34,078 nucleotides of DNA from Candidatus Woesearchaeota archaeon (GTDB lineage Archaea > Nanobdellota > Nanobdellia > Woesearchaeales > UBA10216), in the NCBI GenBank assembly GCA_016180085.1, contig JACPBX010000008.1, positions 1 to 34,078 on the forward strand, given 5' to 3'. The number at the start of each line of letters is the position of its first letter. Within the stretch, counting starts at the first letter, position 1. This document shows positions 12,148 to 20,810 of this stretch, in pieces. Both the position numbers and the translations under genes were made by a program. Under the pieces are notes generated by a model, which did no database searches, had not been told where the DNA came from, and saw only the letters and a program-made list of their open reading frames with translations.

Positions 12148-12573
12148 TTACCCTGTGCTCCCGAACCCGCCTCTCGTTTTCCCCATTTTGTCAGTTTCTT
12201 CCCATTCAAACCTGTCCACTTTCACAAATATTCCCTGCGCTACCCTTTCGCCTTTCTCAACTTTAACAACTTTATCTGTGTTGTTATAGACCTGCACTTT
12301 TACCTCATCGCCTTCTCCGCAGTAGTCGTTGTCAATTACGCCTATGCCGTGGGGCTTAATCAGCCCTTTCTTTCTTGGCGTAGAGCTTCGCAGCGCAACC
12401 AGCAGCATATATCCTTGCGGCGTTTCAACAATAATGTTTCCTGGAATAAGTGCAATCTCGCGCGGCTTTATCTCCATGTCCTCCCTAGAATAAATGTCAA
12501 ACCCCACCGAGCCGGAAGTCTGGTAAGTCGGCAGAGGCAGTGACTTGTCTACGCGCTTTATTTTGACTTTCAT
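12148..12573 (-). CDS. dut: dUTP diphosphatase
   Basis: GSVGFDIYS, RSSTPRKKGL, GVIDNDYCGE, RGGFGSTG. Confidence 0.9.
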   Translation of the reverse strand: MKVKIKRVDKSLPLPTYQTSGSVGFDIYSREDMEIKPREIALIPGNIIVETPQGYMLLVALRSSTPRKKGLIKPHGIGVIDNDYCGEGDEVKVQVYNNTDKVVKVEKGERVAQGIFVKVDRFEWEETDKMGKTRGGFGSTG

Positions 12574-12582
12574 TGTAGTACC

Positions 12583-13029
12583 CTATTTCTTAATCAGCTT
12601 CTTCAGCTCTTTCTCGAAGCTTTCCAGGTCGGCGAACTGCCTGTAGACCGAAGCGAACCTTATGTAAGCGACTTTGTCGAGCTTCTTCAGTTTTCTCATA
12701 ACCAGTTCGCCAACGTGGCTGCTGCTTACCTCTTTCTTTTCTTCGTTTCGCAGCTCGGCCTCTATCTCATCAACTGCATGGTCTATCTTTTCCTGCGGTA
12801 TGGGTCTTTTCTCGCAGGCTTTCGTCATGCCGTTTCTGAGCTTCTCGCGGTTAAAGGGCTCCCTTCTCCCGTCCTTTTTCACAACTACGAGGTCAAAGGG
12901 CTCAATCCTTTCGTAAGTCGTAAACCTTTTTTTGCAGCGAAGGCACTCTCTCCTGCGCCGCGTTGCCTCGTTTGCTTCGCGTTTGTCAACTACCTTGTGA
13001 TCCTCGTTGCCGCAGTAGGGACAGTTCAT
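12583..13029 (-). CDS. nrdR: transcriptional repressor NrdR
   Basis: [36 protein letters not shown] zinc ribbon plus ATP-cone. Confidence 0.95.
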
Positions 13030-13074: not shown

Positions 13075-13641
13075 TCAAATTGGCAGCTCTGATTTCAGCT
13101 TCGATATTAATGCTTCAGTTTCCAGGCTCCTGTTTTCTACTACCCAGCTGTATAGCAGTGGGCTCAGCGTCACGGAGAATGCAAGGTTTCCTGCCAGATG
13201 CAGGAGAGTGAATGGTATTTGTCCTGTCACTGCCTGCACGAATGGCTGTGCGAAAAAGAGAGGGCCTATTGTCAGGCCTGTGGCAGCATCGTAAGCCAGA
13301 GTCCCTAATACAGAAAATATTGCATAGTTTTTGACAGAGCTTTTTCTGCTTTTGAAAAACCATGCGGCGCCAATCCCAACTGCCCCGTAGGCAGCCGCTG
13401 TTATCAATGTCCAGATTCCAGCCTTTTTGGTGAATAAGTCGAACAAAGTTATGCTGAGGAAGCCAAAAGCAAACCCTCCCAAGTAGCCGAATTTTTTGCT
13501 GAAAGGCATGTTTGCGGTCATCACAGGCTCAATATTCGGCGGCCTGAATGGTATTAGCCTTATTGCGAAGCATGCAACAAAACCTATAACGTATTTTGCC
13601 AAATTATTTTTGGCGAGTGTAATTTCCTTCATCTTTTCCAA
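13075..13641 (-). CDS. ECF transporter S-component-like membrane protein (possible cobalamin/corrinoid uptake)
   Basis: RPPNIEPVMTANMPFSKKFG, TM-rich, DAATGLTIGPLFFAQPF; substrate inferred only from the RNR/PduO neighbours. Confidence 0.55.
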   Translation of the reverse strand: MEKMKEITLAKNNLAKYVIGFVACFAIRLIPFRPPNIEPVMTANMPFSKKFGYLGGFAFGFLSITLFDLFTKKAGIWTLITAAAYGAVGIGAAWFFKSRKSSVKNYAIFSVLGTLAYDAATGLTIGPLFFAQPFVQAVTGQIPFTLLHLAGNLAFSVTLSPLLYSWVVENRSLETEALISKLKSELPI

Positions 13642-14174
13642 TACTCGTAGTTTGGCTTTTCTTCCGTAATGCTCCTTCTTCTGTTCTCAACCCTTGCCAT
13701 TATGTGGAGCAGCGATGACAGCCTGTTGGCGTACTTAAGCAGCAGCGGGTTAACCTCCGCGGATTTTGCCAATCTTACCAGCTGCCTTTCAGCCCTTCTT
13801 GAGACAGTCCTGGAGAGGTGGAGCAGGGCTGCCTCTTTGCTTCCTCCCGGCAGCAGGAAGGAGTGTTGGGGCTCCACAAACCTTTCGCATTCCGCGATTA
13901 TTTTTTCAATCCTTTCAACGTGCTTTTCTGTTATTTTCGGAACAGTTTCCACCGCAGCTCCAAGCTCTGCGCATATTGTGTGAATATCATCCTGCGCAGA
14001 CTTCAAAATTCTAACTGTATCATCAGAGCCGGCAAAAGCCCCCACAACGCCAATCACAGAATTAAGCTCGTCATAAGTGCCAAGGGCTTCTATCCTATCA
14101 TCATCCTTCTCTACGCCTGTTTTCCCAAGCAAGCACGTCGTTCCATTGTCTCCTTTGCCAGTGTACAATGCCAT
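13629..14174 (-). CDS. cob(I)alamin adenosyltransferase, PduO type
   Basis: MALYTGKGDNGTTCLLG...ALGTYDELNSVIG...SFLLPGGSKEAALLHLSRTVSRRAER. Confidence 0.92.
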   Translation of the reverse strand: MALYTGKGDNGTTCLLGKTGVEKDDDRIEALGTYDELNSVIGVVGAFAGSDDTVRILKSAQDDIHTICAELGAAVETVPKITEKHVERIEKIIAECERFVEPQHSFLLPGGSKEAALLHLSRTVSRRAERQLVRLAKSAEVNPLLLKYANRLSSLLHIMARVENRRRSITEEKPNYEYWKR

Positions 14175-14189: not shown

Positions 14190-14306
14190 TCATGTGCAGA
14201 TTCCCCAGCCGCATTCCTCGTTCTTGCAGCTGAAGCATGTGCCGTCATCCGTGTCTTCCTTTTCCACCGGGCCGCCGCAGTTAGGGCATTTCGTTATTTC
14301 GTTCAT
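14190..14306 (-). CDS. 38-aa stand-alone zinc ribbon resembling the NrdJ C-terminal tail
   Basis: Read by hand (not in the ORF track): MNEITKCPNCGGPVEKEDTDDGTCFSCKNEECGWGICT; about 15 nt from both nrdJ and the pduO-like gene. Confidence 0.75.
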   Translation of the reverse strand: MNEITKCPNCGGPVEKEDTDDGTCFSCKNEECGWGICT

Positions 14307-14321
14307 TTTTTCCTGCTAATG

Positions 14322-17300
14322 TCATACTTCGCACTTGCTGAAGCCGCACGTTTCGTTAAGGCAGCTGTGGCAGCCGTTTTCGATTTTCAGCGTTTTATTG
14401 CTGCACGATGGGCATATGCTCAGCTTCATGTCAGAGGCTGTTATCTCTGTGCTGTTTTTGCCGTGCCCCTGCCTTGCTTCCGCGGCTGCTGCAGTCTCCA
14501 AGCCTGCAGCTGCTTTTGTGAAGACATACCTTCCTCCGTCTTTTTTAATCTGGCCGTTCTTCGCAGCGCTGTAGACTGTTGTCAGCCTTCCATCTGGCAG
14601 GGCTATCACATCATCTCCCCTCATGAGCCTTTGTTCGCCATCAACCTCAACATCATACTGCTCTTCCGCTGCTTTTTGGAACTCTGATTTCTGCGTGCCA
14701 GTGCTCAGTATCGGGTAGCGGGAGCCTTCCCTGTAGATGGTTATGCCCTTGAGGCCGTTCTTCCACGCGTCAAGGTAGATGTTTGATATGGTCTCAGGGT
14801 CAATGTCCTCAGGCAGGTTTACTGTTGATGATATGCTGTGGTCAACATATTTCTGCCATAGGCCCTGAGTCATTACCCTCTTGCCCGGGTCGATGAAATG
14901 TGCTGTCCTGAAGAAATGGGCGGGCAGTATGCGCTTCAGCTCATCAGCATCCTTGCATTTTTGCGCTTCTTCAGCCAGGTTGTGCTGCTGGATGTACGCA
15001 TCCACAGTCGAATGAAATATCTTGAAGAACATGTTGCTTCCTCCGGAACTCAGGCCCTCAGACCTCCTGGTGTAGTAAAGCGCGAATACAGGCTCTATGC
15101 CCCCGCTGACACCTATGAAATTCCTGTCACCAAGCTTGTAGCCGAGCACTATGTTGGATATTGTCCCTGTTGGCGCTATTGAAAGGATTGCGATGTTCCT
15201 GAGCCCTTTCTTCCTTATGAGTTCCTTTGTTTCGTCTGTAAGCACTTCCTGGAAGAAGTTTCCCTTGCTGTAGGCCTGATACTCGAATATCGGCGATGGC
15301 GATTTCTCCTCTGCCAGGCTTGCTGATGCCTGGTAAGCAGTATTCGAGAACAGTTTGGCAGACTCTTCGAGTATCTTTACGCCTTCCTCGCTGTCATAGC
15401 CAATGCCAAGCTGGTTAAGCATGTCTGCTATGCCCATAACACCCAATCCAACTCTTCTGGTTTCGTAAGCTGCCTTTCGCTGCTTTTCAAGCGGGTTCAG
15501 GAGCTCATTCCACGTAACCACGTTGTCCAAAAATCTCACTGCAAGCGCGGTTGTTTCCTTGATGCCGCCCCAGTCTATCTCTGCCTTGTCTGTGTAGCCG
15601 CTTTTGACAAACCTCGACAAATTGACAGATGCCAGGTTGCATGCCCCGCCGTCCTCAAGAGGAACCTCGGCGCAAGGGTTCGTGCTCGCTATTGGCCTCC
15701 CAACATAGTTGGATGGCGAGTACTTGCTCATTGTAGACCAGAATATGAGCCCTGGCTCGGCTGTCCTGTAGTTGCCTTCTATAAAGGCGTTCCAGATGGT
15801 TCTTGCCTTAACCATCCTCTTTATCTCGTTAGTCTCGCGCGAATTGTAATAAAGCATGAAGTCTCCTGCTTGCTTTATTGCAAGGTCAAACTCAGAGCCC
15901 CTGTCAGGAACGACAATGTCGCCAAACATGTCCCTCCTTCCAGCGTCAGCCAGGTCCCTTCCGCTTAACGGTCCTGCGCCGTGCTCTGACAGGAACCTGT
16001 TAAGCTCTTGCAGCGTGTCAAATGTTTTCAGCAGCCTGTATTTTTCTATCGGCTTCGATGGTATGCCGTATGAGTAGTGCACTGCCCCGCCTTGCATTAT
16101 TCCAAGTCCGGATACTGCCTTGTCTTTCAGATAAACAAGGAGCTTTTCAGTGCCATACCTATTCTGCTCATCAACCGCCTGCATGAACTCGTCTGATATC
16201 TTCAGGCTTATGTTGGCGAACCTCACCTGCGTGTTCTCCCTCACCTGCCGTTCTATTTCCCTGAGCTGCTTCTCATTGAACTGGTTCGACCACTTGCACT
16301 GCTCGACTATCTGGTTCGTCACCCAGTTCGGCATCTTCTTCACGTTTATGAAGTGCTGGCTGTCAGGGTGCTTTATGTCAATGGTGAGCATGAGGGCTCC
16401 CCTTCTTCCTGACTGCCCGATCAGCCCCGTGGTTAACGAGAAAAGCTCCATGAAGGAGACGCTTCCTGTTGAGGTATCGGCCGCGTTGTGAACTACTGAG
16501 CCTTTCGGCCTTAGCACAGATATGTCCACCCCAATCCCGCCGCCATAAGAATAAGTCCTGGCGCATTCGTAAGCAGACTGGTAGATTGACTCTATGTTGT
16601 CCTCTGCTATGAGCGAAACAAAGCAGTTGGCAAGTGTCTTTAGCCTGTATAAATCTCCCCCACCGGCAATCACTCTCCCTCCCGGCACAAAATAGCCCTC
16701 GTACAGCGCCCTGTAGAACCGTGCTGCCCATTCCTGCTGCTTTTCAGGCGTTGACTCAACAGCCGCCATAAAAGCTGCAAGCCTTGAAAACGCATCCTCA
16801 GGCCTTTTCTCAATCAGCTTGTTGCTAAGGTCCTTCAGGAAATATTTCTTCTGGTAGATGCTTGTTGCCAGCTCATTCGCATTAAGGTAGTCTCCTGGGT
16901 GAACAGGCATTTCCCCTTTCTTTTGCAGGTCTTTCAGGTAGAACAAAAGGTTCTTGTAAGCCTCAATCCTGTCATACCCTATAATTGATGCAAGCTTGCT
17001 CTTGTGGGCGAACATGTCAAGCAGCGCTGTCTTCTCACCATCGCTGCCCTTTGCAGCCTCAGCGGCCGCCTGCCTTAGTTCGGCCCTCTTTGCCCTGTAA
17101 AGTATGTACGCCTTCGCTGTCTTGGCATGGCCTTCCTCTATGAGTATCTTTTCAACAGCATCCTGGACCTCTTCCACTGTTGGTATCTTCTCGTTTTTTG
17201 ACACAAAATCAACGACAAGCCCTGACAGCCTATCTGCCTCTTTCCTGTCGCTTCCGCCAACAGACCTTGCAGCCTTCATGATGGCAGAGGTTATTTTTTC

Positions 17301-17396
17301 ATCGTCAAAGTTAACAACCCTTCCATCGCGCTTGACTATCTTGGGAATCCTGCTGACGGACATGGCTTTCCCTGCATCGAAGGCTTTTGGTGTCAT
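14322..17396 (-). CDS. nrdJ: class II (adenosylcobalamin-dependent) ribonucleoside reductase
   Basis: N-terminal ATP cone, GGRVIAGGG, NPCAEVPLEDGGACNLASVNL, SIAPTGTISNI, C-terminal CPSC...CHSCLNETCGFSKC. Start could be the internal Met at 17360. Confidence 0.93.
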   Translation of the reverse strand: MTPKAFDAGKAMSVSRIPKIVKRDGRVVNFDDEKITSAIMKAARSVGGSDRKEADRLSGLVVDFVSKNEKIPTVEEVQDAVEKILIEEGHAKTAKAYILYRAKRAELRQAAAEAAKGSDGEKTALLDMFAHKSKLASIIGYDRIEAYKNLLFYLKDLQKKGEMPVHPGDYLNANELATSIYQKKYFLKDLSNKLIEKRPEDAFSRLAAFMAAVESTPEKQQEWAARFYRALYEGYFVPGGRVIAGGGDLYRLKTLANCFVSLIAEDNIESIYQSAYECARTYSYGGGIGVDISVLRPKGSVVHNAADTSTGSVSFMELFSLTTGLIGQSGRRGALMLTIDIKHPDSQHFINVKKMPNWVTNQIVEQCKWSNQFNEKQLREIERQVRENTQVRFANISLKISDEFMQAVDEQNRYGTEKLLVYLKDKAVSGLGIMQGGAVHYSYGIPSKPIEKYRLLKTFDTLQELNRFLSEHGAGPLSGRDLADAGRRDMFGDIVVPDRGSEFDLAIKQAGDFMLYYNSRETNEIKRMVKARTIWNAFIEGNYRTAEPGLIFWSTMSKYSPSNYVGRPIASTNPCAEVPLEDGGACNLASVNLSRFVKSGYTDKAEIDWGGIKETTALAVRFLDNVVTWNELLNPLEKQRKAAYETRRVGLGVMGIADMLNQLGIGYDSEEGVKILEESAKLFSNTAYQASASLAEEKSPSPIFEYQAYSKGNFFQEVLTDETKELIRKKGLRNIAILSIAPTGTISNIVLGYKLGDRNFIGVSGGIEPVFALYYTRRSEGLSSGGSNMFFKIFHSTVDAYIQQHNLAEEAQKCKDADELKRILPAHFFRTAHFIDPGKRVMTQGLWQKYVDHSISSTVNLPEDIDPETISNIYLDAWKNGLKGITIYREGSRYPILSTGTQKSEFQKAAEEQYDVEVDGEQRLMRGDDVIALPDGRLTTVYSAAKNGQIKKDGGRYVFTKAAAGLETAAAAEARQGHGKNSTEITASDMKLSICPSCSNKTLKIENGCHSCLNETCGFSKCEV

Positions 17397-19264: not shown

Positions 19265-20251
19265 CTACAAATCACCACTAAGATTATATTGATTCAAAAG
19301 AAGTTTATTTTGTAACTGTTTATTAAAACCAAGTAATCGTAATATCACAATTTCCATTATTTTTTGCAGGATAAATAGCATTTGGGGTTTATTCATCAAC
19401 TTTTGCGAATTTAAATTATGAACTAGCTTCGTTCTAATTTCCACCAGATTAGTTAAAACTTTATCTGGATTTTTGGAATCAAATCCTAAATCTAAACTTC
19501 CCAAGTAACTCCTAACTTTTTCATATGTGTTCCTTTCGTACAAAAAACTCCTTAGAATATTCCTTTTAAGCAGGCTTAATTTATTTCTATCTTTAACGCA
19601 GTCTTCCAACGCAGCCGATACCCCATCTTTAATCTTTTTTAATTCCTCTTCCGTAAATATTCTGAGTTTCTTATTTAAGCTATTCTCATTAGCCAAGCGC
19701 TCCAAACTTATCCAACATATCAAAAATTGCAGCTCCGTGATCATATCAGAATGTGAGACAAGGTAAGCGTGTATGACTTTTATAATTTCACTGCATTTAG
19801 ATGCAGTGGTTGTGTTTAGTTTTGCAAGAGCATAATCTATAAAAAATGTTATATCTCTCGTAAAAAAGACACCGTGCGTATTAATTCCGTGTATTAAATC
19901 GGAGTGTCTATTTTCTATCAGTTCAATATGCTTATAGTAAAACCTCGGATACTTTTTCCCTTTCCCATACTCGTAATGATAGTTAAAAAAAACGCTACGT
20001 TTTTGTGCAAAAGAATAAAGCCACTCTAACCAATCAGCCAGCTTTAAAGCTTCATCTCTGTTTGTCGCACGAATATAACACTTTGCAGTTTTCCAAGCGT
20101 CTTGTGCATGAGGATTGTTGATTTTTGTTCTTTCTTTTTCGAATATTTCGGCATATTTTAATGGCACTATTCTTATACATAAGTCTTCATTTATGTACTG
20201 TTTTCCTCTCGGGATGTATAAATTATAGAAATCAAATACGTATGTGTGCAT
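19265..20251 (-). CDS. HEPN-like domain protein of unknown function
   Basis: 328 aa from ATG 20251; C-terminal RTKLVHN (R-x4-H); clearly more AT-rich than its neighbours. Confidence 0.5.
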   Translation of the reverse strand: MHTYVFDFYNLYIPRGKQYINEDLCIRIVPLKYAEIFEKERTKINNPHAQDAWKTAKCYIRATNRDEALKLADWLEWLYSFAQKRSVFFNYHYEYGKGKKYPRFYYKHIELIENRHSDLIHGINTHGVFFTRDITFFIDYALAKLNTTTASKCSEIIKVIHAYLVSHSDMITELQFLICWISLERLANENSLNKKLRIFTEEELKKIKDGVSAALEDCVKDRNKLSLLKRNILRSFLYERNTYEKVRSYLGSLDLGFDSKNPDKVLTNLVEIRTKLVHNLNSQKLMNKPQMLFILQKIMEIVILRLLGFNKQLQNKLLLNQYNLSGDL

Positions 20252-20258
20252 TTTGCAC

Positions 20259-20810
20259 CTATCCAAACGAGCTTCCGCAGCTGCACACTGCATGCGCGTT
20301 CGGGTTGTCCACTTTGAAGCCGGAGCGGTTCAGCGTTTCAACGTAGTCAATCACTGCGCCTTTGAGGGCTTCCGCGCTCGCGGCATCCACAACGATTTTT
20401 AATCCGCTTTTCTCTAAAATTACGTCGTTGCTGCCGCTTTCATCGTCGAGAGAAAAATCGTAGCTGTATCCTGCGCAACCACCTGGCTTTACCTCAACTC
20501 TGAGGTTGAATCCTGAAATGCCCTGCTTCTTCATCATTTCCTTTACCTTTTCCACAGCCGCATCAGTGACATCAAACTTGTCCGGTTTTTCCTTTGGCCT
20601 TTCAGAGTCTATTTTTGCTGCTGCGCGGTTTAATTCCGTCAGCATATTATTGAAATCTTTCTCATTCATCACTGTCGCAGCTGCTGTTTTGAGTTGCTCC
20701 TGGTAAGGTGTGCCGCAGCCCGTCATCTTCATTCCAAATCCGGCCATTGCATCAGCTAATTGGGGGTATTTCAGCATTATTTCGCCAATTGTTGTTTCTG
20801 CAGTTATCAT
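20259..20810 (-). CDS. DUF1858-like domain fused to HesB/IscA-type A-type carrier
   Basis: TTIGEIMLKYPQLADAMAGFGMKMTGCGTPYQEQL then VEVKPGGCAGYSYDFSLDD...CSCGSSFG. Confidence 0.8.
   Translation of the reverse strand: MITAETTIGEIMLKYPQLADAMAGFGMKMTGCGTPYQEQLKTAAATVMNEKDFNNMLTELNRAAAKIDSERPKEKPDKFDVTDAAVEKVKEMMKKQGISGFNLRVEVKPGGCAGYSYDFSLDDESGSNDVILEKSGLKIVVDAASAEALKGAVIDYVETLNRSGFKVDNPNAHAVCSCGSSFG

Follow-up and report, generated by a model that had tools for sequence, protein, structure and literature searches.

The window, i.e., the whole stretch of 34,078 nucleotides of Woesearchaeota DNA analysed here, carries on its minus strand, in this order, nrdJ, a small open reading frame (mini-ORF), a gene for a PduO-type cobalamin adenosyltransferase, a gene for an ECF S-component-like protein, nrdR and dut, which reads as a coherent B12-dependent dNTP operon (Table 1). 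The PduO-type adenosyltransferase would be the source of the RNR cofactor, and the ECF S-component-like protein possibly serves corrinoid uptake. The active-site cysteines of NrdJ are located at positions 258, 575 and 586, and the protein ends with six further cysteines of its own (995, 998, 1009, 1012, 1017 and 1022); the catalytic chain thus keeps its redox tail. Elsewhere in the window, a 342-aa protein (19265-20293) weakly resembles Apea-like HEPN domains (E 3e-4, under the Pfam cut-off).

Table 1. Features of the nrdJ operon in the window and of the loci compared with it (coordinates preceded by L refer to other loci).
Feature	Coordinates	Strand	Evidence
mini-ORF, stand-alone six-Cys zinc ribbon, 38 aa	14190..14306	-	ORF; 7/8 genus genomes; invariant Cys; pN/pS 0.18; model pLDDT 85
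spacer nrdJ/mini-ORF, 15 nt, with SD-like AGGA before the mini-ORF ATG	14307..14321	-	sequence
nrdJ, adenosylcobalamin-dependent class II RNR, 1024 aa, ATP cone	14322..17396	-	TIGR02504 502 bits; Pfam ATP-cone and RNR domains
pduO, PduO-type cob(I)alamin adenosyltransferase	13629..14174	-	PF01923 6e-47, TIGR00636
ECF transporter S-component-like membrane protein	13075..13641	-	PF07155 1.3e-6
NrdR, RNR transcriptional regulator	12583..13029	-	TIGR00244 195 bits
dUTPase	12148..12573	-	TIGR00576 117 bits
separate NrdJ ribbon ORFs of genus g7, three genomes	L039:3474-3608, L040:14613-14741, L041:1256-1399
displaced-RNR locus of G160, f1-type nrdJ where congeners carry another NrdJ	L147:2822-6656

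The mini-ORF runs from ATG (14306) to TGA (14190) and encodes 38 amino acids, MNEITKCPNCGGPVEKEDTDDGTCFSCKNEECGWGICT. A sequence-only reading of this DNA had placed it between nrdJ and pduO with gaps of about 15 nt, and both the coordinates and the gaps, 15 nt from the nrdJ stop codon and 15 nt to pduO, were confirmed. Searching all six frames of the window for the six-Cys pattern returned two places, namely the mini-ORF and the NrdJ tail, and the pattern did not arise in any of 20,000 shuffles of the bases in the 147-nt gap. The mini-ORF is present in seven of the eight genomes of its Woesearchaeota genus, always directly behind nrdJ (abutting or almost so in G004, G003 and G006), and in all seven it has a start and a stop codon of its own rather than being an extension fused to the NrdJ C-terminus. 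The six cysteines, a G-T motif and CGWGIC are invariant across the seven sequences. The pN/pS ratio, summed over pairs, was 0.18 at near-saturated synonymous divergence, as compared to 0.18 for the NrdJ tail, and the variable sites were distributed over codon positions 1, 2 and 3 as 9, 9 and 29. Hence, the mini-ORF is a real gene under codon-level purifying selection, and a chance ORF is ruled out by its conservation and pN/pS; the conservation beside nrdJ and the selection on codons that the sequence-only reading had named as checks were both found. The mini-ORF was not detected in the remaining genome of the genus, G002 (67% complete), where pduO directly follows nrdJ. Since the NrdJ tree leaves undecided whether G002 is basal, the mini-ORF may have been gained inside the genus or lost in G002. 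In two congeners, G001 and G005, palindromic hairpin-like inserts that resemble dispersed repeats lie between nrdJ and the mini-ORF (L032:955-1042 and L035:722-818).

The six cysteines of the mini-ORF follow the order CxxC...CxxC..C....C and can be aligned with those of the ribbon at the NrdJ C-terminus, four of which have been proposed to ligate zinc and two to form the redox pair (PMC5704485). In this alignment, C7, C10, C27 and C32 would be the zinc ligands and C24 and C37 the redox pair. The same order, with cysteines 1, 2, 4 and 5 assigned to zinc and 3 and 6 to redox chemistry, is found in the CRD ribbon of Stackebrandtia nassauensis NrdJd (PMC5704485), which, however, is fused to its enzyme, whereas here a separate 38-aa gene stands beside an NrdJ with a fused ribbon; moreover, the spacing differs (C-x2-C-x13-C-x2-C-x4-C-x4-C in the mini-ORF as compared to x2-x9-x2-x2-x5). 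BLASTP of the mini-ORF against its own NrdJ aligned the C-terminus alone, with 37% identity over 35 residues and an E-value of 3e-6 for that comparison, and hhalign of the mini-ORFs with NrdJ tails returned a probability of 96%. HMMs of NrdJ tails scored the window ORF with 24.1 bits for the CGWG type, 22.3 bits for all tails, 13.7 bits for the type of its own nrdJ and 12.3 bits for a third type, and these scores were reached by 0, 0, 7 and 6 of 1000 Cys-preserving shuffles, respectively.

No named Pfam or NCBIfam family matched the mini-ORF above cut-off, and the highest score among 24,736 Pfam models was 16.2 bits, below the 22-24 bits of the NrdJ-tail HMMs (all tails and CGWG type). AlphaFold2 predicted a zinc-ribbon fold (pLDDT 85), with which Foldseek retrieved mostly zinc ribbons, all weakly; ribbons of Topo I and RNA polymerase were the best matches, none of them at E<=0.001, and solved structures contained no sequence match to the mini-ORF. 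In the reverse direction, a profile of the mini-ORFs scored 22-26 bits on two LigA zinc fingers as compared to at most 18 bits on NrdJ tails, a comparison biased by the choice of these two LigA fingers for their match to the mini-ORF. Short zinc ribbons do resemble one another, and at 38 aa the similarity to other ribbons is real; the assignment to the NrdJ-tail family leans also on cysteine layout and gene order. A small zinc ribbon of a general kind that works outside RNR, i.e., in nucleic-acid binding, translation or, together with PduO, corrinoid handling, and is simply encoded in the same operon would be in line with the weak similarity that Topo I, LigA and further ribbons show and with pduO as the next gene. 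We regard this as quite improbable, since the six-Cys layout is that of NrdJ tails, every Pfam model is outscored by the NrdJ-tail HMMs, and a free ribbon of demonstrable NrdJ origin occupies the same place in another genome, G160 (see below). Furthermore, in G006 the mini-ORF sits between nrdJ and nrdR, and the whole genome (88% complete) returned zero matches to PduO. The mini-ORF thus tracks nrdJ and not pduO, which weakens PduO as its partner. In four other genera, the gene for a conserved, roughly 110-aa membrane protein lies between nrdJ and pduO, with either NrdJ type (L043:5380-5790, L046:5465-5880, L045:4150-4560 and L047:5145-5560).

With regard to its origin, the mini-ORF is matched best by the CGWG-C tail found in another lineage of NrdJ and not by the tail of its own NrdJ: six of the seven mini-ORFs scored 24-26 bits against CGWG-type tails and 14-19 bits against their own NrdJ type, and the pairwise score was 84 against CGWG-type tails and 66 against the own tail. 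The sequence-only reading had described the mini-ORF as a mirror of the nrdJ C-terminus; the six-Cys NrdJ-tail layout holds, while a copy of the resident tail is disfavoured by these scores. A recent duplication of the resident tail, which would concern the origin only and be compatible with any function, is supported by the adjacency to nrdJ and by the C-x4-C spacing shared by the mini-ORF and its own tail, but we consider it unlikely given the higher scores of the CGWG-type tails. In the family of the window both NrdJ types occur at the same locus, in different genera, and the mini-ORF is nearest to the type that its genus no longer has. Because the types share the locus and the mini-ORF is nearest to the absent one, the likeliest origin would be the orphaned tail of a displaced RNR rather than a duplicate of the resident tail.

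Such a displacement can be seen in G160, a genome of another family (f10). Here, an nrdJ with fused tail, 69% identical to that of the window, is followed after 4 nt by a free 38-aa ribbon and then by CobO/BtuR. In the five congeners examined, the same CobO (77-83% identical) is preceded by a different NrdJ, the fused tail of which is nearly identical to the free ribbon of G160, and the 3' flanking DNA after the stop codon is alike as well. A match to that congener tail was found in all 19 other genomes of the genus, in none of which a free ribbon beside nrdJ was identified. In the NrdJ tree, the G160 enzyme branches among the NrdJ of the window's family and was therefore probably acquired horizontally. 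In G160 the resident RNR was displaced and its old tail left as a free ORF; G160 is an example of the birth of a freestanding-microprotein gene, in which an essential enzyme is replaced and its tail stays behind. No intermediate of the G160 kind was found in the family of the window. For the G160 free ribbon, pN/pS against the congeners was 0.22-0.42, relaxed yet below 1, as compared to 0.03-0.18 for the congeners' fused tails. This relaxation, together with the absence of the mini-ORF from G002, would suit an orphaned tail with little or no present function that decays slowly or is kept by translational coupling. For the window's genus we judge this very improbable, since pN/pS is 0.18 at near-saturated synonymous divergence and every cysteine is kept in seven genomes.

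The mini-ORF itself has a narrow distribution. A profile search that covered 353 genomes from the order and 371 from the phylum recovered it in its genus only, and a scan of 84,980 genomes with two short patterns, the reach of which is limited to close relatives, returned six Woesearchaeota loci and five others, four of the latter being read as LigA. Two candidates were discarded, namely a 54-aa match in G411 with a different cysteine layout and a 51-aa frame in G158 that is part of a fused tail cut off at the edge of a contig. We found no report of a ribbon-only stand-alone gene in the open-access literature.

Within the same family, the sister genus g7 offers a parallel. In all three genomes (G013, G017 and G018) nrdJ lacks any C-terminal cysteine; the ribbon is encoded on its own, as an ORF of 42-47 aa located 0-4 nt downstream of nrdJ in differing relative frames, with a pN/pS of 0.12-0.15. 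Barring direct access of some other reductant to the active site, this ribbon must act in trans. As in the window, a stand-alone six-Cys ribbon stands directly behind nrdJ; however, the g7 ribbon is the sole one, whereas that of the window's genus is additional and of another sequence type. In G335, G326 and G327, from two other families, a catalytic chain without tail is accompanied by a second chain ending in a ribbon; of the two second chains scanned for TSCPD, that of G335 scored above cut-off and that of G326 just below. This arrangement looks much like NrdJa/NrdJb. In Pseudomonas aeruginosa (PMC4520616; PMC9669993), the redox tail is likewise encoded off the catalytic chain and expected to act in trans, but NrdJb combines an IscU-like domain with the ribbon and NrdJa has no tail, whereas here the ribbon is alone and the catalytic chain has its own. 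Compared with split class II RNRs, the catalytic chain in the window thus keeps its tail, and the 38-aa ORF is a ribbon without TSCPD/IscU-like domain.

We propose that the mini-ORF peptide probably goes back to the C-terminal tail of a different NrdJ type, which was lost while its tail was kept. Produced from the nrdJ operon, the peptide would bind zinc through C7, C10, C27 and C32, and this would place C24 next to C37 as a dithiol/disulfide pair. It would dock near the active-site entrance of NrdJ and swap disulfides with the cysteine pair there (by homology C258/C586), either as a supplement to the fused tail or alternating with it. Acting in trans as a redox ribbon of NrdJ is the most probable role of the peptide and the best supported one because the only NrdJ ribbon of the sister genus is a separate peptide. 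Three comparisons within the order, namely g7, the two-chain NrdJ of G335, G326 and G327, and the orphaned tail of G160, back a tail that works in trans. As a whole, we are inclined, with slightly better than even confidence, to regard the mini-ORF product as a redox zinc ribbon of the NrdJ type that exists as a free peptide, probably derives from the orphaned tail of an RNR, and serves NrdJ in trans as a re-reductant next to the fused tail. The thiol-disulfide exchange by NrdJb of P. aeruginosa (PMC4520616) is a positive precedent for a tail in trans; furthermore, turnover depends on the CRD cysteines, and electrons can move from one subunit to another (PMC5704485). By contrast, the separately expressed CRD failed to restore S. 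nassauensis NrdJ without CRD (PMC5704485), which counts against activity in trans, although that CRD is normally fused. Likewise, the need for the peptide is not obvious because the resident NrdJ keeps its own tail intact, and the restriction to one genus as well as the absence from G002 speak against this explanation. A lack of thioredoxin could not be used as an argument for a shuttle, since thioredoxin-fold matches over cut-off were present in seven of the eight congeners.

The fused tail could already carry the redox work, and the ribbon might then bind NrdJ in a structural or regulatory capacity, i.e., in oligomer control or stabilisation of the mobile tail, without electron transfer. The modelled zinc ribbon and the influence of the CRD on oligomerisation (PMC5704485) agree with such a role, which we nevertheless find unlikely: the two cysteines that correspond to the redox pair are kept in all seven sequences, would be superfluous in a four-Cys ribbon, and are lacking in LigA-type ribbons. 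Returning to the redox ribbon, a more specific form, that of an exchangeable tail in which the free 38-aa ribbon from a displaced RNR shuttles electrons to an NrdJ with a fused tail, is put forward tentatively, as we hold it to be doubtful; if true, two electron routes would be open to a single class II RNR. Which reductant serves class II RNRs with such a tail physiologically is unsettled, and the genus g7, in which the ribbon is cut off, and the window's genus, with its second, free ribbon, provide small and cheap natural constructs for studying re-reduction by the ribbon alone. Finally, the nrdJ frames of G018 and G002 contain intein-like insertions at the active-site NPC motif (L040:14742-17999 and L038:8537-10885).
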